From Puniceicoccaceae bacterium (GTDB lineage: Bacteria > Verrucomicrobiota > Verrucomicrobiia > Opitutales > Opitutaceae): a DNA stretch of 33,499 bases. Position numbers and translations under genes: made by a program. The notes beneath the pieces were generated by a model, which saw nothing but the letters and a program-made list of their open reading frames with translations, did no database searches and had not been told where the DNA came from. This document shows, piece by piece, positions 6,274 to 17,791 of this stretch (positions are counted from its first letter, which is position 1; the number at the start of each line of letters is the position of its first letter). The DNA lies in NCBI GenBank assembly GCA_007695295.1, contig REEB01000163.1:1-33499 (forward strand), given 5' to 3'.

Positions 6274-9200
6274 ATGCCCGTAACACGTTTTGTCACCGGG
6301 GCGGAAGGGACAGGGAAAACCACCCTCCTTCCGCTGCTTCGCAAGCGATTGCCAGGGTGGGCGATCCATGACTTTGACGAAGTCGGTGTTCCTGATGCAC
6401 CGACCGCAGAATGGCGCCGGACAACAACGGGGCACTGGCTGGGTGTTGCACTGGACAATCAGCGCAAAGGAATTTCGACCTGCATTGTGGGATTGATCTA
6501 TCCCAGTGAGGCCAAAGCCTTTCCCGCTCACCGTGAGCTGGCGCCAAGCTACTGTATCCTGGAGTTGGATACAGCCGAACGGGCCAAACGCTTGCGGGAA
6601 AGAAATACGCCGCATCACATCGATTCGCCCTGTGTGGGTGAATTACAGCAGGAGTTTGCTATGCCCGATCCCGCCCTGCATCGCATCGACGTCACGGGCT
6701 TTGATCCCGAGACCGCCGGCGAAGCGGTGGCCGCGTGGGCGAATGGGACACTCACCGAGGCCGCTTCTCGTCGCCAGTCCTGGTTGTTTGTCACCCACGA
6801 GGCGAGTCTGACCGGAGCACCCATGTTTCTGCTCCACTTCCTGCGCTGGCTGCGGGCAAACACGGATTTGGATCTCAGGCTCTATAGTGTGAAGGATGGT
6901 CCCTTGCTCAAAGCCTTCGGTGAAGTGGCCCGGGTGCACCCGATGGGCGATGAAGCAGGCCTGGTCCGTCTAGCCGCGTCCTGCGACTTGGTCTATATCA
7001 ACACCATCTGTGCGGCGAATCTCGGACACCGGCTGGCCGGACCGGGGATTCCACTGGTGACTCACGTGCACGAGTTGGATGTGGCCTACGAGAATTTTGG
7101 GCCACGATGGATGGCTTTGATGCTGCAGCAGAGCCGTCGACTGGTGTGCTGTTCGGAGTTCGTGGCGGAGCGGATGCGGATGCGCTACGGGGTGGCGGCG
7201 GAACGCCTGACCGTGGCGGCGGAGATGATCGACACCAGGAAGCTGCGGGTGAGGCGGGAGGCGAGAGAAAAACCTCCGCCGGAACTGGCCGCATTTCCCC
7301 AGGGGACGCGGTTTGTGATGGGCTGCGGATCGCGTGATGTACGCAAGGGCTTTGATCTCTTTTTGCAGGTGGCGGTGGCTTTGCGCGGGCAATGGAGTGC
7401 GGTCGATCCGGTGCGCTTTGTTTGGATCGGGAAAGAATTTTCAGACGCCTATGCCACCAACATGCGGCTGGACATCGGCAAAGCGGGGCTGGCCGGAGAT
7501 TTCATTTGCATTGCGGAGACGGATGATCCGCACCGTTACCTCAAGCGGGCCGACGTTTTCTGCCTTACTTCGCGGGAAGATCCCTATCCGCTCGCCATGT
7601 TGGAGGCGGCGGCCTTGGGCAAGCCCATCGTGGCCTTTGCCGGGGCGGGTGGCGGCGAACACTTTTGCGGGCAGGGGGCTGGGCTGGTGGTTCCGTATTT
7701 GGATGTCTATGGCATGGCGGCTGCCTGCGGTGTGCTGCTTGAAGACGAGGAACGTCGCCAGAGCTTGGGCCGTCGTGCAGAGGAGCTGGCCCGGGAGCGG
7801 CATGCGATCGACGTAGTTTCCCGCGGACTACACAGGCAGCTAATGGGGATGATGGAGGGCGGCCTCGGCCGGCAACCCTTGGAGTCATTGGAAACGGTTG
7901 TCGAGCGGTGGAGTCGGGAAGAAAATCCCCGCGGCACACAATATCGAGAGTCGATTCGCCGGCGCCGGCATCTTCGATCGAAGGTAGGGGAACTGCTGCA
8001 GCGGGGAAACACTGCTGCGGTGCAGCATGCGGTGGTGGATGTACTCAACCAAGTCATGGATGCGGGTGATGCCGATGCCATCATCGAGACTTTGGTGGAA
8101 GCTTCCGAGGTGTTGCAGGCGGTGCTGCCCGAACAGGCGGGGGCGTTGCTGGAGCGGGCCAAGGGTATGGCCACGGCGAGACTTCGTGAAGTGGACTTTT
8201 ATCGTGACACCCCGGCAGTGGAACCCGGGCGGACTCAAAGAGAACGGAAGGTTGAAGCCGTCACCAAGGAGATTGCTCCGGCGATGTCCGCCACTCCCGG
8301 ATTGGAGGGGAAGCGCGTGTTGGTATTTTCCGACGATCCCGGGCAGGGCGGGGTGGCGCAGTATGTGCACGGGGTGCTGCTCGGGTTGCGGGCGGCGGGG
8401 GTGGAGGCGGTTTGCGCCCAGCCGGAAGCGGAAAACCCTCTCGTGGAGGCGCAGCGGGCCGCCGGGGTGAGGCATGTCTGGACCGGTTTCAATCCCGAGG
8501 AGGACTTCACCCGCTCCTTCAGCGACGGGGAGGATGCGGTGCGCATCCTTGATGCGGTCGAGCCCGAGGTGGTGTTGTTTGCGGACTGCTGTCCGCTCTC
8601 CCACCTCGCGGCCAAGCAGGCCGTGATCGACCGGCTGATCCCTTGGGTGGCGACCTGCAACGTCGATGCGCCCTATTTGGCGAAGAAGTTTCCCGAGGCG
8701 TTGCCGGTGGCGAAGCGGCAGTATGGCTGTGCGTCCGAGGTGATCGGCGTCTCGCGGTCGGTGCTGGAGACCCTGCGGACAACCTACGGCCTGGAGACGG
8801 AGCGGGGCCGGGTCGTCTATTACGGCCGGCCGGACTTGTATTTTAAAACTCAGGACAAAGCGGCCCGGATGCGCCTGCGAAAAGAGCTGGCGCTGGGGGC
8901 GGACGCGGTGCTCTGCCTGACCGCCGCCCGGCTGGCGCCGGACAAAGGCCACCTTTACCAAATCGAGGCGGTCCGCCGGCTCCGGGAGAAGGGCCGCCTG
9001 GGCAACCTGCACCTTGCCTGGGCGGGTGACGGTCCGCTGCGCGAGGAACTGCAAAAGGCCATCGAGGCCAACGGCCTCGGCGACCGCATCCACCTGCTCG
9101 GCCATCGCTGGGATCTGCCGGACTGGCTTTCGGCGGCGGATGTCTTCGTGCTATCGTCGCGGGTGGAGGCGATGCCGCTGAGCATCATGGAGGCGATGGC

Positions 9201-12200
9201 GATGGGCCTGCCGGTTGCAGCGACGGCGGTGGCGGGCGTCCCCGAGGAACTCGGCGAGACCGGAGCGCTATTGCCTGACCCGAAAATTGACCCCGCCGAG
9301 ACCGTCCGCGCCCTGGCCGATGTATTGGATAAGTGGGGACGTAATGAGAAGCAGCGGCGGACTGTCGGCGCCGCCGCCCGGGAGCGGGCGGAGCGGCTCT
9401 TCCGTGAAGAGCGGATGCAGTCCGAAACCCTTGCCATCCTGACAGAGGCCACCCGGGAGCGCGTGGCGGAGCGGGCGGCGCGCAAACTCAACGCCTTGGT
9501 GCGCGATGGAGAAATCCTGCCGGCCCTGGCGCGCTACCGGGAAAACCTCGAAACCGCGGTGGAGCCGGAGGCGGGCGAAACCCTGCCCGTATTCGCGGCC
9601 GAGGAGCTGGCTTCGATCCGGCAGGTGGCGGCGGCGTGGAAGGAGAATCCCGGCGATACGGCTGCGGCGGCGCAACTCCGCGAGCTGCGCAACCAGATGG
9701 CGGTCTTTCTTGCCGGCACCGAGGAGCGCCTCACTCCGGCGCTTTTCGCCGGCAATTTTGGGGAGGTTTACCGGGAGCTGATTCGAAGCGGCATCCAAGA
9801 TGAAGACCTTACCGCCGAGGAAGCGGAGGCTGCGGCGCAAGTGGCGGCGGGTTTTGACACCGAGGGGAACTTTTCGCTGGCCCGGCTGATGGCCTCGCTG
9901 CTCTTCCGCCGGGCTTGGCAGGAGCCCGCCTTGCTGGCCTTTGAACTAATCCCTTCTTGGTTTGGCGAACTCTATTTCGAGGCCTTGTTGCACGCGCCCG
10001 CGTTGTTTGACCAGCCCGGGGATGCTGAGCGCTATCGACGGCGGCTGGCGGAGGTGACCCGGGAAATCCACCGCCGCATCCAGGTGGAAGAACCGGATGG
10101 GATGGCGGCGGAAGCGGCCCTGACCTTCTTGCGGCGCGCCAACTTCATGCCGCTCTATTTCACGGAGGCCCCCTGCGCCGAGCTGCACCGCCTGCGGGCG
10201 GAGATCATGGCCTGGCGGCTTGGCTACGATGGATTCGACCTCGCCGGCCCGCCGCAGGCGGCGCGGGCACGGTCGGCCGGCGGCAAGATCCGGCTCGGCA
10301 TCCTCTCGGCGCATTTCGGTCCTCAGACCGAGACCTACACCGTCATCCCGCTCTTTGCCGAACTCGACCGCCGCCGTTTCGAAGTGGTGCTGATCGCGCT
10401 CCAGAAAACGGATACACCACTGGAGCGGTTTTGCCGGGAGCGGGCCGACCGTTTTATCGTCCTTGATGGTCGTCTGCCGGAGCAGGTGAACGCGGTGCGG
10501 GCGGCGGCGCTCGACGCCCTTGTCATCGGCACCAACGTAACCGCGGTGACCAATGACATCAGCCTGCTGGCCCTGCACCGCCTGGCGCCGGTGCAGATCT
10601 GCTCGAACTCCTCGCCGGTCAGCACCGGCATGGCGCAGATCGACGCCTACCTCTCGGGAACGCTGAGTGAAGCGGAAGCGGAGGAAGCGCGCGGGCACTA
10701 CACCGAAGCGCTGTGTCTGCCAGAGGGACCGGCCCATTGCTTTGCCTACGGGGCGGATGCGCGCCCGGCGGAGATCAGTGTTTCCCGGGCCGAGCTCGGA
10801 CTTCCGGAAGATGCGGTCGTCTTCGCGAGCGCGGCCAATTGCTTCAAGCTCCTGCCGGAGCTGCAGGAGACCTGGGCGCGGATCCTTGCCGCGGTGCCCG
10901 GATCGCGGCTGCTGCTGCATCCCTTCAATCCCAACTGGAGCAACCGGTATCCGGTTTTCCACTTCGCGCGGGCGGTGCGGGCGGCCATGCGAAGGCACGG
11001 GGTGGAGGAGGACCGACTGATCCTTTCGGAGAGCCGCCTGCCCGGCCGTGAAGACGTGAAAGCCCTGCTGGCGGTGGCGGATGTATACCTCGATTCCTAT
11101 CCCTTTGCGGGGGTTAACTCGACGGTCGATCCCCTCGAGCTGGGGCTGCCCTGCGTGGTGCGGGAAGGAAGGACCTTCCGCTCGCGCATGGCGGGGGCGC
11201 TGCTGCGGGACCTCGGTTTGGAGGATCTCATCGTCACCGAAGAGGACGCCTACATCGAACAGGCGGTGCGGCTCGGCCGGGAGCCGGCCTTCCGCGGCGA
11301 AGTGAGCGCGCGGATCCGGAAGGCGATGGCCGCCGGCCCGCGTTTCTTCGACACCGCCGGCTATGCCGGGCGTTTTGCGGCGGTGGTGGAGGTGCTGGTG
11401 CGGGGACGGCCCGAACCGGGACCGGAGCGGAAGGAAACGGCCCCGTCGCAGGCAATCGAAGTCGCGGACGAGGACTTGCTGGCGCGGGCGACGGCGGCGT
11501 ATGCGGATGGCCGCTACGAAGAGACAGAAACCCTCTGCCGTGAATTGGTGGAGCGGTCTCCGGAGACGGCGCCTGCCTGGGCTCTTCTGGGGCGGCTGGC
11601 CCGGCGTTTTGGCGATTACAATTTCGCGGCCGAACTCCTGGAGCAGGCCCTGGCCTTGGATGCCGCGCCCGAAGAAAGTTGGGTGGCATTGGGCGAAGTG
11701 CGCCTGGCACAAGCGGCTTGGAGCGAAGCACTGGAAGCCTTTGCCGCCGCGCTGGATCGGGATCCCGGGCGGAGCGATGCCGTGCACGGCCGGGCCCTGG
11801 CGCTCTGGCGGAGCGGCGACACCCCATCGGCGGAAACCGCCTTCCGCGAAGGACTGGCTTCGTCCTGCGACCGGGCGGAAGCGGCGCGGCTGCGGATGAG
11901 TTATGCCGCCTTTCTCCATGAGCGGGGGCAGGTGCCCGAAGCGATCCGGCAACTCCGCAAGGCGGCCACGGCGGAACGGGAATCCGCCGAGCCATGGGTG
12001 CTGCTGGGACGCTGGCTGCGGGAAAGCGGCAACCCTGGTGACGCTCTCGCCAGCCTCAACCGCGGATTGAAGAAATTTCCCGAGGCCGGGGGTCTCTGGC
12101 TGGAGGCGGGCAAAGTTCTTTTGCTTGATGGGCGCGCGCGGGAAGCGGTCGACCGTTTGCGGCGGGCGGCCGAGCTGATGCCGGACGATGGAGAGACGTA

Positions 12201-13851
12201 TTTTAATCTCGGATACGCCCTGCAGCAGACCGGGCGACGCGGCGAAGCGCTGGAGGCCTATCGCAAGGCGGAGGCCGGTGGTTGGGAGGCGGCTGAACTG
12301 CACCTCAACCTCGGAGTGTTGCTGAAGGACCGGGAGGAATTCATGGAAGCGGCCCGGTCTTTCGGGCGGGCGTTGGCCTTGAAGCCGGATTCCGTGGCCG
12401 CCTACAACAACCTCGGCGCCGTCTGCAGCCAGCTCGGCATGATCAGCGATGCGATCGACTGCTTCGGCAAGGCCTTGGAGCTGGAGCCGGCCATGCCCGG
12501 AGCACTCAACAACCTCGGGCAGTTGCTGAAAAACACCGGCCGGGCCGGGGAGGCGCTGCCCTGCTACCGCCGGGCGGTGGAAGCGGATCCCGGTCAGCTT
12601 GGTGCAATCCAGAACCAACTGCTCTGCACCTTGTATCAGACCGACCTCACGCCGCAGGCCATTTTCGAGGCTCACCGGCACTGGGGCGCGGTGGTGGCCG
12701 ACGCCGCGCCGCGGTGGCGGCGGCAGGCGCGCTCGCCGCGGTCCGGCCGGCGCCTGCGCATCGGCTACCTCAGCCCTGACTTCTGCGCCCATCCCGTGGC
12801 GGCCTTTGCGGAGGCGCTCTTGGCGGGGCATGACCGGGACCACTTCGAAATCCATGCCTACGCCGATGTGCTGCGGCCGGATGAAACCACCGGGCGCCTG
12901 TGCGGCTGCGTCGAGCATTGGCACGAAGTGGCCGAGTGGAGCGATGAGCAACTTGCGGAGCGGATCGAGCGCGATGGCATCGACCTGCTCATCGATCTCG
13001 CCGGGCACACCGCCCGCAATCGGTTGCAAGTCCTGGCGGCCCGGCCCGCGCCTGTGACACTGACCGCACTCGGCTATCCGGCGACCACCGGCGTGCCCGG
13101 GATTGATTACCGCCTGACCGATGCCGAAGCGGATCCCGAAGGCGAGGCCGACGCCCGGCACACCGAGCGGCTGCTGCGGCTGCCGCGGACCGCCTGGTGC
13201 TGGCGTCCCCCCGGGCAGAGTCCGCTTCCGGCGCCGGCACCGTGCGAGAAAAATGGATACATAACCTTCGGCTCATTCAACAACCTGGCCAAGATGAATG
13301 CGGCGCTTCTGGAGACATGGGCCGAATTCCTGCGAACGGTGCCGGATTCGCGGCTGCTCCTGAAGGCGCGCCCCCTCCTCGATGAAGGCGTGAGGCGGCG
13401 GTTCGAGAGCTTTTTCACCGCGCGGGGGATTGCGTCGGAACGCCTGCGGCTGGTTGGGCCGGATGCGGGGGTGGAGGCCCATTTGGCGCGCTACCACGAA
13501 GTCGACATCGCCCTGGACACCTTTCCCTACCACGGCACGACCACAACCTGTGAGGCGCTTTGGATGGGTGTGCCGGTGGTGACGCGGGCTGGGGAGGATC
13601 ATCGCTCGCGGGTCGGGGTGAGTTTGCTGAAAGCGGTGGGGCGGCCGGAGTGGATCGCCGATGATGCCGCGACGTGGGTGCGGCGGGTGGCGGAAATGGC
13701 CGGGGATAGCTCCGCCTTGTCGGCCGTCCGCGCGGGCCTGCGCGAGGACCTGCGGCGGAGTCCGCTGCTGGATGTGGCGGGCTATGTCGCGGCGGTGGAA
13801 GCCGCCTTTGGTTCGATCCTCGAACCCGCGCTGAGCGGGGTGGAGCGGTAG
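6274..13851 (+). CDS. Giant multi-domain glycosyltransferase: P-loop kinase-like + GT4 + GT4 + GT41 + 11 TPR + GT41
   Basis: A 2525-residue single open frame. Domains in order: (1) residues 1-165, a small P-loop kinase-like domain with Walker A GAEGTGKT at 9-16. (2) About 170-530, a GT4 transferase starting FVTHEASLTGAP, with REDPYPLAMLE ending at Glu444. (3) About 680-1057, a second GT4 with SDDPGQGGVAQY, ARLAPDKGH and the E-x7-E pair Glu965/Glu973. (4) About 1060-1335 helical, then 1338-1707 a GT41/SPINDLY-type domain of the variant class (SAHFGPQTETY, LDSYPFAGVNST). (5) About 1730-2108, eleven TPRs. (6) About 2160-2520, a canonical-type GT41 domain with SPDFCAHP (His2173), FGSFNNLAKMN (Lys2340), DTFPYHGTTTT (2415-2424) and EDHRSRVG. 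No signal peptide or membrane helix is seen, so it should be cytosolic. It probably builds glycans on a protein or carrier; the acceptor is unknown. Glycosyltransferase families are certain, specificities are not. Confidence 0.9.
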   Translation: MPVTRFVTGAEGTGKTTLLPLLRKRLPGWAIHDFDEVGVPDAPTAEWRRTTTGHWLGVALDNQRKGISTCIVGLIYPSEAKAFPAHRELAPSYCILELDTAERAKRLRERNTPHHIDSPCVGELQQEFAMPDPALHRIDVTGFDPETAGEAVAAWANGTLTEAASRRQSWLFVTHEASLTGAPMFLLHFLRWLRANTDLDLRLYSVKDGPLLKAFGEVARVHPMGDEAGLVRLAASCDLVYINTICAANLGHRLAGPGIPLVTHVHELDVAYENFGPRWMALMLQQSRRLVCCSEFVAERMRMRYGVAAERLTVAAEMIDTRKLRVRREAREKPPPELAAFPQGTRFVMGCGSRDVRKGFDLFLQVAVALRGQWSAVDPVRFVWIGKEFSDAYATNMRLDIGKAGLAGDFICIAETDDPHRYLKRADVFCLTSREDPYPLAMLEAAALGKPIVAFAGAGGGEHFCGQGAGLVVPYLDVYGMAAACGVLLEDEERRQSLGRRAEELARERHAIDVVSRGLHRQLMGMMEGGLGRQPLESLETVVERWSREENPRGTQYRESIRRRRHLRSKVGELLQRGNTAAVQHAVVDVLNQVMDAGDADAIIETLVEASEVLQAVLPEQAGALLERAKGMATARLREVDFYRDTPAVEPGRTQRERKVEAVTKEIAPAMSATPGLEGKRVLVFSDDPGQGGVAQYVHGVLLGLRAAGVEAVCAQPEAENPLVEAQRAAGVRHVWTGFNPEEDFTRSFSDGEDAVRILDAVEPEVVLFADCCPLSHLAAKQAVIDRLIPWVATCNVDAPYLAKKFPEALPVAKRQYGCASEVIGVSRSVLETLRTTYGLETERGRVVYYGRPDLYFKTQDKAARMRLRKELALGADAVLCLTAARLAPDKGHLYQIEAVRRLREKGRLGNLHLAWAGDGPLREELQKAIEANGLGDRIHLLGHRWDLPDWLSAADVFVLSSRVEAMPLSIMEAMAMGLPVAATAVAGVPEELGETGALLPDPKIDPAETVRALADVLDKWGRNEKQRRTVGAAARERAERLFREERMQSETLAILTEATRERVAERAARKLNALVRDGEILPALARYRENLETAVEPEAGETLPVFAAEELASIRQVAAAWKENPGDTAAAAQLRELRNQMAVFLAGTEERLTPALFAGNFGEVYRELIRSGIQDEDLTAEEAEAAAQVAAGFDTEGNFSLARLMASLLFRRAWQEPALLAFELIPSWFGELYFEALLHAPALFDQPGDAERYRRRLAEVTREIHRRIQVEEPDGMAAEAALTFLRRANFMPLYFTEAPCAELHRLRAEIMAWRLGYDGFDLAGPPQAARARSAGGKIRLGILSAHFGPQTETYTVIPLFAELDRRRFEVVLIALQKTDTPLERFCRERADRFIVLDGRLPEQVNAVRAAALDALVIGTNVTAVTNDISLLALHRLAPVQICSNSSPVSTGMAQIDAYLSGTLSEAEAEEARGHYTEALCLPEGPAHCFAYGADARPAEISVSRAELGLPEDAVVFASAANCFKLLPELQETWARILAAVPGSRLLLHPFNPNWSNRYPVFHFARAVRAAMRRHGVEEDRLILSESRLPGREDVKALLAVADVYLDSYPFAGVNSTVDPLELGLPCVVREGRTFRSRMAGALLRDLGLEDLIVTEEDAYIEQAVRLGREPAFRGEVSARIRKAMAAGPRFFDTAGYAGRFAAVVEVLVRGRPEPGPERKETAPSQAIEVADEDLLARATAAYADGRYEETETLCRELVERSPETAPAWALLGRLARRFGDYNFAAELLEQALALDAAPEESWVALGEVRLAQAAWSEALEAFAAALDRDPGRSDAVHGRALALWRSGDTPSAETAFREGLASSCDRAEAARLRMSYAAFLHERGQVPEAIRQLRKAATAERESAEPWVLLGRWLRESGNPGDALASLNRGLKKFPEAGGLWLEAGKVLLLDGRAREAVDRLRRAAELMPDDGETYFNLGYALQQTGRRGEALEAYRKAEAGGWEAAELHLNLGVLLKDREEFMEAARSFGRALALKPDSVAAYNNLGAVCSQLGMISDAIDCFGKALELEPAMPGALNNLGQLLKNTGRAGEALPCYRRAVEADPGQLGAIQNQLLCTLYQTDLTPQAIFEAHRHWGAVVADAAPRWRRQARSPRSGRRLRIGYLSPDFCAHPVAAFAEALLAGHDRDHFEIHAYADVLRPDETTGRLCGCVEHWHEVAEWSDEQLAERIERDGIDLLIDLAGHTARNRLQVLAARPAPVTLTALGYPATTGVPGIDYRLTDAEADPEGEADARHTERLLRLPRTAWCWRPPGQSPLPAPAPCEKNGYITFGSFNNLAKMNAALLETWAEFLRTVPDSRLLLKARPLLDEGVRRRFESFFTARGIASERLRLVGPDAGVEAHLARYHEVDIALDTFPYHGTTTTCEALWMGVPVVTRAGEDHRSRVGVSLLKAVGRPEWIADDAATWVRRVAEMAGDSSALSAVRAGLREDLRRSPLLDVAGYVAAVEAAFGSILEPALSGVER

Positions 13852-13903: not shown

Positions 13904-14057
13904 CCCCCGAGTAAGCCGGGAAGCGCCTGGGTCGTCTGTCGGCATGATGCTGGCAGGACCCCGGTGACCAACCCAAATGCCCGAACCCCGCACAGAACGA
14001 GCGGGGACAGACCTTGGGTGGCAGCGAGACCGGATGGTCCTTGACCCGGGAAAGCCA

Positions 14058-14063
14058 TATAAT
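14058..14063 (+). promoter_or_regulatory. Likely -10 box of the vapBC operon
   Basis: A perfect TATAAT lies 13 bases before the vapB start. TTGACC at 14041-14046 is only 11 bases upstream, too close for a normal -35, so the promoter is incomplete by consensus. CTACCAT occurs at 14064-14070 and again at 14084-14090. This direct repeat around the start codon could be an antitoxin operator, since AbrB-type antitoxins usually bind their own promoter. Confidence 0.4.
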
Positions 14064-14076
14064 CTACCATAAAACC

Positions 14077-14349
14077 ATGAAAACTACCATTGATCATGCG
14101 GGACGAGTGGTCATCCCCAAAGCCCTGCGGATTCAGTACCACCTGACTGGTGGCACCGAGTTGGAAATTGTGGCGGATGGTGATGCGCTGCGCCTTCGGC
14201 AGCCTCAAGCGGCATCCCGTTTCACGGAAAAGGACGGCGTTTTGGTGCAAACCGGTGAACCCCAGTTGGGTATCGATGCAGCCGCGTTCATCAACCAACA
14301 GCGGGACGCGCGAGCCTTGGGGACGGCCGCTTTCGGAAAATCCTCATGA
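14077..14349 (+). CDS. vapB: AbrB/MazE-fold antitoxin (VapB)
   Basis: A 90-residue antitoxin. The N-terminal half is an AbrB/SpoVT-type swapped-hairpin DNA-binding domain (TTIDHAGRVVIPKALR at residues 3-18, then a GTELEIV strand). The C-terminal tail (about residues 48-90) is the part that normally wraps the PIN toxin. I use the ATG at 14077, which begins the domain exactly; the frame extends to 14014, but that would add 21 residues unlike the family. Its stop overlaps the start of vapC (ATGA), the usual arrangement for a coupled antitoxin-toxin pair, and it probably represses its own promoter. Confidence 0.88.
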   Translation: MKTTIDHAGRVVIPKALRIQYHLTGGTELEIVADGDALRLRQPQAASRFTEKDGVLVQTGEPQLGIDAAAFINQQRDARALGTAAFGKSS

Positions 14350-14780
14350 GCGGGGTGTTCTTCGACACCTCGGCCTTGGTTCCGGTGGTCACCGAGCAGT
14401 TGCCCAATCATGCCGCTTCCCACGCGCGTTTTGTCAGCGAGTTGCGCCGCGGCCATCCCGTTTGTTGCAGCACCCACACCCTGGCCGAATGTTATGCCAC
14501 GCTGACGGCATTGCCGCTGCCCCGGCGCATTTCCGGTCCGGAGGCGGCCCGTTTGATCGAGATCAACTTCATCGGAAAAATGAAGGTGGTGGAGCTGACT
14601 TCCGCGGACTATGGGAAAGCGATTCGACACTGCGCCGATGCCGGACGGATCAGCGGGCAAATGTACGACGCTCTGCATCTGGTCGCGGCACTCAAAGCGC
14701 GGTGCAATCAGCTCTTCACCTATAATCTCTCCGACTTCACGGCTCTGGGAGGCGATCGGATCGCAGTCTCCGTGCCTTGA
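14346..14780 (+). CDS. vapC: PIN-domain ribonuclease toxin (VapC)
   Basis: A 144-residue PIN-domain protein, expected to be a magnesium-dependent ribonuclease held inactive by the VapB encoded just upstream. The acidic active-site residues are visible: Asp7 in FFDTSAL, Glu48 in TLAECYATL, Asp108 in MYDALHLVAA, and the Asn127/Asp130 region in TYNLSDF. All conserved positions are present, so the toxin looks intact. Known VapC targets are tRNAs or the 23S rRNA sarcin-ricin loop; the target here cannot be inferred. The start codon lies within the last codons of vapB. Confidence 0.9.
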   Translation: MSGVFFDTSALVPVVTEQLPNHAASHARFVSELRRGHPVCCSTHTLAECYATLTALPLPRRISGPEAARLIEINFIGKMKVVELTSADYGKAIRHCADAGRISGQMYDALHLVAALKARCNQLFTYNLSDFTALGGDRIAVSVP

Positions 14781-16435: not shown

Positions 16436-17791
16436 TCAATCCCGGGGTTGAAACTGGTTGGGCACTGGGGCAGAGTCCTCTTCCCTGAATGCGCTCAAGC
16501 CGTGCGATTTCAGATGGTCGAGGCGAGAAATGATGGCTTCCGGTTTGGGATAAATTTCATAGCCAGAATCTCGGGTGGCTTGAACAACATTTTCCGTGGA
16601 CCGGTATGCCTCAAGCCAGCTTTCTTTGGCCGCCTTCCTGCTAAGGGCGAGATCCGATGCGTAGAAAACGTTGGAGGCATAGGACAAGGCCGCCAGGATA
16701 AGGAAGATGGCCAGTCGTGGGGTTTTCCATCGGCACGATCGGGATTGGGACAAGATTAGGTGGAGGGTCAAAATTGCTGGCAGAGCAAGGGATAAATAGC
16801 GGGATGAACCTCCCGTGTTTACGCCGAGGGAGACTCGGCCAAAGGAATTGGCGATAATGAATCCGAAGGAAGTTGCCAAAAAAAGGAGGATGATTGAGTC
16901 AATAGCATTTAGATCTTTGGTTGCATGGATTGCTGTTCGCAGCAGGACCGCAAGCAGGCAAAGCAGAATTGTAAAGCCAATGTAGGGTCGGATTGGACTT
17001 GGCAGGTAGAAAAGCCTACCAAAGAGGTAGTGGATGAACACCACATAATCGTGGATGGGAAGATGGGGAAACCGAACGTCCGGATTGGCGGGATCCCATT
17101 GGTACTCAATGCTGAATATGACCGAACCAAAGCAGAAAAAAGCCAGACCGAAGGTTCTCCAGCATGTGTCCTGGTGGTTGCGCTTCCAAATCGAAAAAAT
17201 CCAATCATAAACGTAAATGAATAAAGCCCCGGTGAAAACAAAAAAACCAAACCCCGTAAACAAAGCAATTGTTGCCAACGCCGGAGCAGCGGCGTAACGC
17301 ACCATGGGGTGCTGGCTGATGTAGCAATGCGCGAAACACAACAACAGGAAAAGTGGCAGGATGCTGTGAGACAGGTTTGGAGTAACAGTAATCGTTTCGA
17401 TTTGGACCGGATTAAGAACAATGAGCGGAATGGCCGTGTCCCAGACCGTAATTTCGGATGTGAGCCGTTTTTTCAGCGCTACTGCCAAGATGGACGCCCC
17501 GACTAAAAAGACAGCGATCATGATCGATTCAATCCGATGCGAAAAGCCTGTGGCATTTGCAGTAAAATACGTTATAATTCCCCCCAGGCCTTGGCGATGC
17601 GGACCGTGTTGGTACATGAAGGCGTTGACTGGACCATCCTGATTAAACATAGGGGTGTAGAGATCCCACTGATCATGAAATAATATAGGGCCACTGAAAG
17701 CGGCTGCCTGATAAAATAAATGACAAGCCAAAACAGCCGTAAACAGGGAGACAATCTTGAGCGGTAAATGGGAGTGAGAAGAATATTTCAC
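16436..17791 (-). CDS. AT-rich polytopic membrane protein, possibly GT-C-like, unrecognised
   Basis: A 451-residue protein with roughly nine to eleven hydrophobic helices and a short polar C-terminal tail. After the first helix there is a luminal-looking loop [12 protein letters not shown] followed by [11 protein letters not shown]. An acidic residue in the first loop and a QHxxHR-type motif recall uncharacterised GT-C-fold membrane glycosyltransferase-like proteins, but this is weak inference. The start is GTG at 17791; no ATG gives a better N-terminus and no strong ribosome binding site is visible. The gene is clearly poorer in G+C than its neighbours (one 60-base line, 17221-17280, has 25 G/C) and its codons reflect that, suggesting recent transfer. 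No flanking transposase is visible. Confidence 0.75.

Follow-up and report, generated by a model that had tools for sequence, protein, structure and literature searches.

A single open reading frame carrying two GT4 and two GT41 glycosyltransferase modules in a Puniceicoccaceae bacterium

FlmG of Caulobacter crescentus is a flagellin O-glycosyltransferase in which a TPR part binds flagellin and a glycosyltransferase (GT) part modifies it (PMC7591256). According to the same work, flagellin is glycosylated in steps and without an oligosaccharyltransferase (PMC7591256), a mode that soluble GTs in one chain would fit. In Pseudomonas aeruginosa PAO1 a flagellin-modifying GT is joined to a phosphotransferase in PA1091 (FgtA) (PMC11833859), a precedent for one chain that combines steps in making a single flagellin glycan. 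Several GT domains are also found together in PBCV-1 A111/114R, where the proposal is that they attach sugars one after another to a single protein-linked glycan, independently of the ER and Golgi (PMC7826918).

Here we describe a gene that resembles each of these systems in part. It lies in a window of 33,499 bases, which is an entire contig (REEB01000163.1) of a draft genome assembly of a Puniceicoccaceae bacterium (278 contigs). A sequence-only reading had proposed that the gene encodes four GT modules of two families in a single uninterrupted frame, and our analysis upholds this.

The fusion gene and its modules

The frame comprises 2525 codons, begins with ATG, ends with TAG and, in the translation of the window, contains no internal stop. 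From the N- to the C-terminus, the order is P-loop, GT4a, linker, GT4b, mid region, GT41a, about 11 TPRs and GT41b:

6274..13851, + strand: whole fusion gene, 2525 aa
6274..6768, + strand: aa 1-165, P-loop NTPase/kinase-like domain with Walker A GAEGTGKT and DFDEV; AAA_18 match sub-threshold
6769..7953, + strand: aa 166-560, GT4a; Glycos_transf_1 E 1.1e-17
7954..8298, + strand: aa 561-675, linker; predicted helical in a low-confidence model
8299..9453, + strand: aa 676-1060, GT4b; Glycos_transf_1 E 6e-31, EX7E motif in EAMPLSIME
9454..10263, + strand: aa 1061-1330, mid region; undescribed, helical, about 20-29% identity, where aligned, with the same region in relatives
10264..11433, + strand: aa 1331-1720, GT41a; Glyco_transf_41 E 3.4e-22, SPINDLY E 1.7e-22
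11434..12618, + strand: aa 1721-2115, TPR array of about 11 repeats; TPR_2 E 7e-45
12619..13848, + strand: aa 2116-2525, GT41b; Glyco_transf_41 E 2.7e-52, SPINDLY E 7e-89, 5djs E 1e-67

The Pfam scan was made on pieces of the translation separately. Glycos_transf_1 was matched twice (E 1e-17 and 6e-31; 64.5 and 107.6 bits against a gathering cut-off of 26.4), as was Glyco_transf_41 (PF13844; GT41a, E 3e-22 and 78.8 bits; GT41b, E 3e-52 and 178 bits; cut-off 25). The domains listed earlier as GT4, GT4, GT41, TPR and GT41 were recovered, but that list had missed the linker and the mid region. The linker matched no Pfam family above its cut-off and the mid region matched none. The two GT41 modules are 27-28% identical and the two GT4 modules 38% identical over 95 aa; the chain thus did not arise by recent internal duplication.

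No stop or frameshift separates the modules over 7.6 kb. Codon-position GC is of the coding-frame type along the whole gene, and GC3 is of the coding type in every module, although it drops to 0.61-0.71 over aa 1-560 and to 0.65 in the linker, against 0.76-0.83 in the rest of the fusion. An antisense open frame of 1071 codons (9946-13161, - strand) lies opposite the gene and most likely just mirrors its coding frame, which is high in GC. Internal translation starts were uninformative: Shine-Dalgarno-like sites in frame with potential start codons are scattered, and a few of them are near junctions (GTG 682, GTG 1709). AlphaFold models made without an alignment for aa 1-675 and aa 1060-1739 had a mean pLDDT of 40, too poor for use; the helices of the linker come from such a model.

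The N-terminal domain had been called kinase-like with a P-loop. The Walker A motif is visible, but every Pfam match is sub-threshold and the kinase label can only be putative. The best match was AAA_18 (E 2e-4, 22.3 bits, below the cut-off of 29.4), and no kinase family exceeded its cut-off over aa 1-165. A PDB search gave nothing better than E 0.69, and among 252 genomes of the same family no homologue was better than E 8e-4; the weak matches fell in unrelated regions or on generic AAA proteins.

At the other end of the protein, aa 1721-2525 makes up an entire TPR-GT41 unit like those of FlmG, SPINDLY and OGT. It has the layout of FlmG, with N-terminal TPRs and a C-terminal GT-B/GT41 domain, and aligns over its full length with SPINDLY and bacterial OGT. 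In the alignments, GT41b keeps the histidine and the lysine at the positions where SPINDLY has them.

GT41a differs from GT41b at both columns where GT41b and SPINDLY have histidine, and retains the lysine (FKLLPE) and aspartate (VDPLE) positions. Its motifs are HFGxQTETY, GTNVTA, HPFNPNWS and VDPLE; the strings HF.xQTET, GxNxT and PLE/PLD are common to 12 of 15 aligned sequences (the fusion and 11 of 14 relatives). Alignment places GT41a in a divergent GT41 subgroup marked by conserved motifs of its own. Because its relatives keep these strict motifs, the module appears to be under constraint. Our survey points to this GT41 subgroup as one located at flagellin loci, and we found no description of it in the literature searched.

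Separate genes, flagellin loci and the history of the fusion

Within the family, these modules are mostly encoded by separate genes. Homologues of TPR-GT41b are typically encoded by genes of their own of 600-900 aa, frequently as tandem copies; those of mid-GT41a measure about 740-870 aa, the mid region travelling with GT41a. GT4b homologues (40-52% identity) occur in flagellar and fusion loci, and GT4a homologues were found in L095/L132 (42% identity) and L096 (44-45%). A wider contig scan returned mainly generic GT4 matches, plus a tandem pair of TPR-GT41 genes in Aureimonas altamirensis (L028, 9254-13855; 755 and 741 aa, 37-41% identical to GT41b). Viral contigs gave two weak matches and nothing more.

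Many of the family's GT41 genes lie close to flagellin genes. The distance was at most 20 kb in 11 of the 17 genomes that have both, and the share of the genome that close to a flagellin is at most 2-4.2% (three closed genomes). The remaining six showed no such proximity: five had no flagellin on a contig that carries GT41, and G007 has the two 380 kb apart. Three loci illustrate the arrangement, with FliD denoting similarity to a FliD-like gene adjoining a flagellin in the fusion-bearing genome. In G230 (L132), a distant GT41a-like gene and separate GT4b and GT4a genes are followed by two flagellins and FliD. G191 (L137) has two TPR-GT41b genes and a GT41a-GT4b fusion, then two flagellins and FliD, and G004 (L079) has FliD and three flagellins followed by TPR-GT41b and mid-GT41a. 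By analogy with FlmG, we take these as putative flagellin glycosylation loci. The relatives' GT loci include further GTs and methyltransferases.

Fusions are frequent in the family; for instance, two TPR-GT41 units are joined in L084. Fused types that include GT41 measure 1144-1765 aa, and other GT41 frames reach about 1000 aa among the family matches listed by Pfam. Long GT chains near GT41 or flagellin genes were also seen in relatives: GT4-methyltransferase-GT4-GT4 (L139, 12832-18750, 1972 aa), GT2-GT2-GT4 (L138, 3721-7053, 1110 aa) and three GT4 domains (L147, 6292-10272, 1326 aa).

The closest relative of the fusion is a protein of 1447 aa from a second genus (L074, genome G006) with the order GT2-TPR-GT4b-mid-GT41a. 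It shares the GT4b-mid-GT41a core with the fusion in identical order at 44% identity. Searches of 373 genomes from the order and 338 from the phylum, two samples that overlap, gave this arrangement in these two proteins only. The two proteins group together in the GT41a and GT4b trees (bootstrap 100 and 87%). Because the GT4b-GT41a junction is present in a second genus and both proteins group in both trees, it was probably inherited, and an artefact of assembly is an unlikely explanation for it. The additions of P-loop/GT4a and of TPR-GT41b were seen in this genome only among the genomes searched. The exact architecture was absent from every genome searched in the family, order and phylum, and we found no paper describing it in the literature searched, in agreement with the earlier statement that no identical architecture was known.

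The reverse order, GT41a-GT4b, is fused in three relatives (L076, L077 and L137). This weakens the earlier suggestion that the order of the chain reflects an ordered assembly line: because relatives carry homologous GT41a and GT4b modules in opposite order, where a module stands in the chain does not necessarily tell when it acts in synthesis.

Neighbourhood, acceptor and proposed function

The fusion gene is flanked by genes for UbiA, DUF1573, an esterase, a YjgF protein, a MazE-PIN pair and glycyl-tRNA ligase. The MazE-like antitoxin and PIN-domain toxin pair (14014-14780, + strand) lies directly downstream. No flanking glycan-synthesis enzyme gave a significant match in the window, and the sequence-only reading had seen no other glycan gene adjacent. 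A 451-aa polytopic membrane protein with low GC3 (16436-17791, - strand) has a sub-threshold DolP-mannosyltransferase match (E 0.003). It is possibly a GT-C enzyme, which would make it the sole other glycan gene nearby. Synteny of the window's flanks was not conserved at the relatives' GT loci.

No flagellin was found on the contig, within 6.2 kb upstream or within the 19.6 kb downstream to the contig end. Elsewhere, the host genome encodes FliW, a FliD-like protein and several members of the flagellin family; its flagellin genes sit on other contigs, some of which break off in or close to that gene. In L150 (8572-13551, contig C16 of the host), one of these flagellin genes lies about 8-11 kb from genes whose sequences resemble those for bacterial microcompartment shell proteins, an aldehyde dehydrogenase and an acetate kinase. 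No 16S gene was recovered from the host genome or from three relatives with single-contig genomes, which makes the result of an 18-base rRNA probe uninformative. No second GT41 was matched in the host genome, and other GT4 genes occur elsewhere in it. In G006, L074 lies away from the flagellins and is clustered with GT11-GT2 and FkbM methyltransferase genes; at L074 3276-8522 (- strand), beside the related fusion, the GT11-GT2 fusion measures 850 aa and the FkbM methyltransferase protein 876 aa. A separate GT41 set lies about 10 kb from the G006 flagellins.

We propose, with moderate confidence, that the fusion is one soluble cytoplasmic chain that assembles a short glycan directly on Ser/Thr residues of an acceptor, with flagellin the likeliest. 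The TPR-GT41b unit would recognize the acceptor and add the first sugar, as Caulobacter FlmG does. GT41a and both GT4 modules would then extend the glycan from nucleotide-sugar donors with the acceptor still bound, and the P-loop domain may phosphorylate the sugar or glycan, or regulate the chain. What we have in hand is the frame, the identities of the modules, their homology to flagellin-adjacent genes and one fusion junction shared with another genus; from these we infer activity, target, order and sugars. The FlmG-like unit and the flagellin neighbourhood of homologous genes support the earlier suggestion of a glycan on a protein. That one polypeptide performs every transfer from acceptor recognition to the last sugar, with the P-loop domain adding a phosphate or activating a sugar, we consider quite unlikely. 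The earlier suggestion that the whole pathway may be packed into the protein is not supported, as the chain comes without nucleotide-sugar genes, relatives use extra GTs and methyltransferases, and the host has GT4 genes elsewhere.

The host is flagellated, and the fusion is its only GT41 match, so that no other GT41 would be available for its flagellins; the module families are also concentrated at flagellin loci across the family. However, neither the fusion gene nor L074 adjoins flagellin genes. Because L074 lies in a glycan cluster away from the flagellins and G006 keeps another GT41 set near them, the fusion clade may have another target. We therefore regard it as a serious, if somewhat unlikely, alternative that the same machine acts on some other surface or secreted protein. 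It is unlikely that the modules are merely tethered, each GT serving its own acceptor with no common glycan and the fusion securing equal dosage. The two module orders, GT41a-GT4b in three relatives and GT4b-GT41a in the fusion and L074, would suit such an arrangement, and two different GT41 modules could each modify proteins. Yet modules of these types are found together or fused time and again at a single kind of locus, as one pathway predicts, and GT4 enzymes usually extend glycans, which counts against tethering.

Two further readings concern the integrity of the gene. If part of the frame were a mis-join, two or three genes would have been read as one. The draft state of the assembly, the lower GC3 at the N-terminus and the two junctions seen in this genome only (P-loop/GT4a to GT4b, and GT41a to TPR) are compatible with this, but the shared GT4b-GT41a junction in an independent genome, the uninterrupted coding-type frame and the frequency of module fusions in the family make it very unlikely. 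We consider it equally improbable that the chain is partly decayed, with modules such as GT41a or the P-loop domain serving as a non-catalytic scaffold. The missing histidines of GT41a and the sub-threshold, unique P-loop domain would agree with decay, but the lysine and aspartate positions and the strict motifs common to most aligned homologues speak against it. If the chain proposed here is active, acceptor recognition by TPR-GT41 would be coupled to extension by GT4 and GT41a in one soluble polypeptide. One purified protein would then suffice to test in what order, and how processively, flagellin is glycosylated in the cytoplasm, and it could also be of use in engineering protein glycans, as a tool that is genetically compact.

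Comparison with known systems

FlmG is the described enzyme that aa 1721-2525 resembles: both have N-terminal TPRs and a C-terminal GT-B transferase, FlmG in about 600 aa (PMC7591256), and genes homologous to the fusion sit at flagellin loci in relatives. FlmG differs in being a single transferase that uses pseudaminic acid (PMC7591256); in the fusion the corresponding unit makes up the C-terminal third, joined to three more GT modules and a P-loop domain. SPINDLY/OGT (PDB 7y4i, 5djs, 2vsn) align with GT41b over the whole catalytic domain and carry TPRs. Unlike the fusion, they have one catalytic domain and no GT4, and GT41a is far more divergent from them (E 2e-22).

The multi-domain enzymes differ in other ways. 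PBCV-1 A111/114R is viral and consists of three domains of about 300 aa, proposed to be Gal, Xyl and Fuc transferases acting on an N-glycan; the portion of the account used here describes no TPR-GT41 part (PMC7826918). PA1091 combines a GT2 with a phosphotransferase, giving two functions, and no GT41 or TPR is described for it (PMC11833859). In L074, a GT2 replaces the P-loop domain and GT4a, and the C-terminal TPR-GT41b is absent. In sum, the parts, multi-GT chains, bifunctional flagellin enzymes and TPR-GT flagellin enzymes are already known, and the exact combination of modules is new with respect to the genomes and papers searched.
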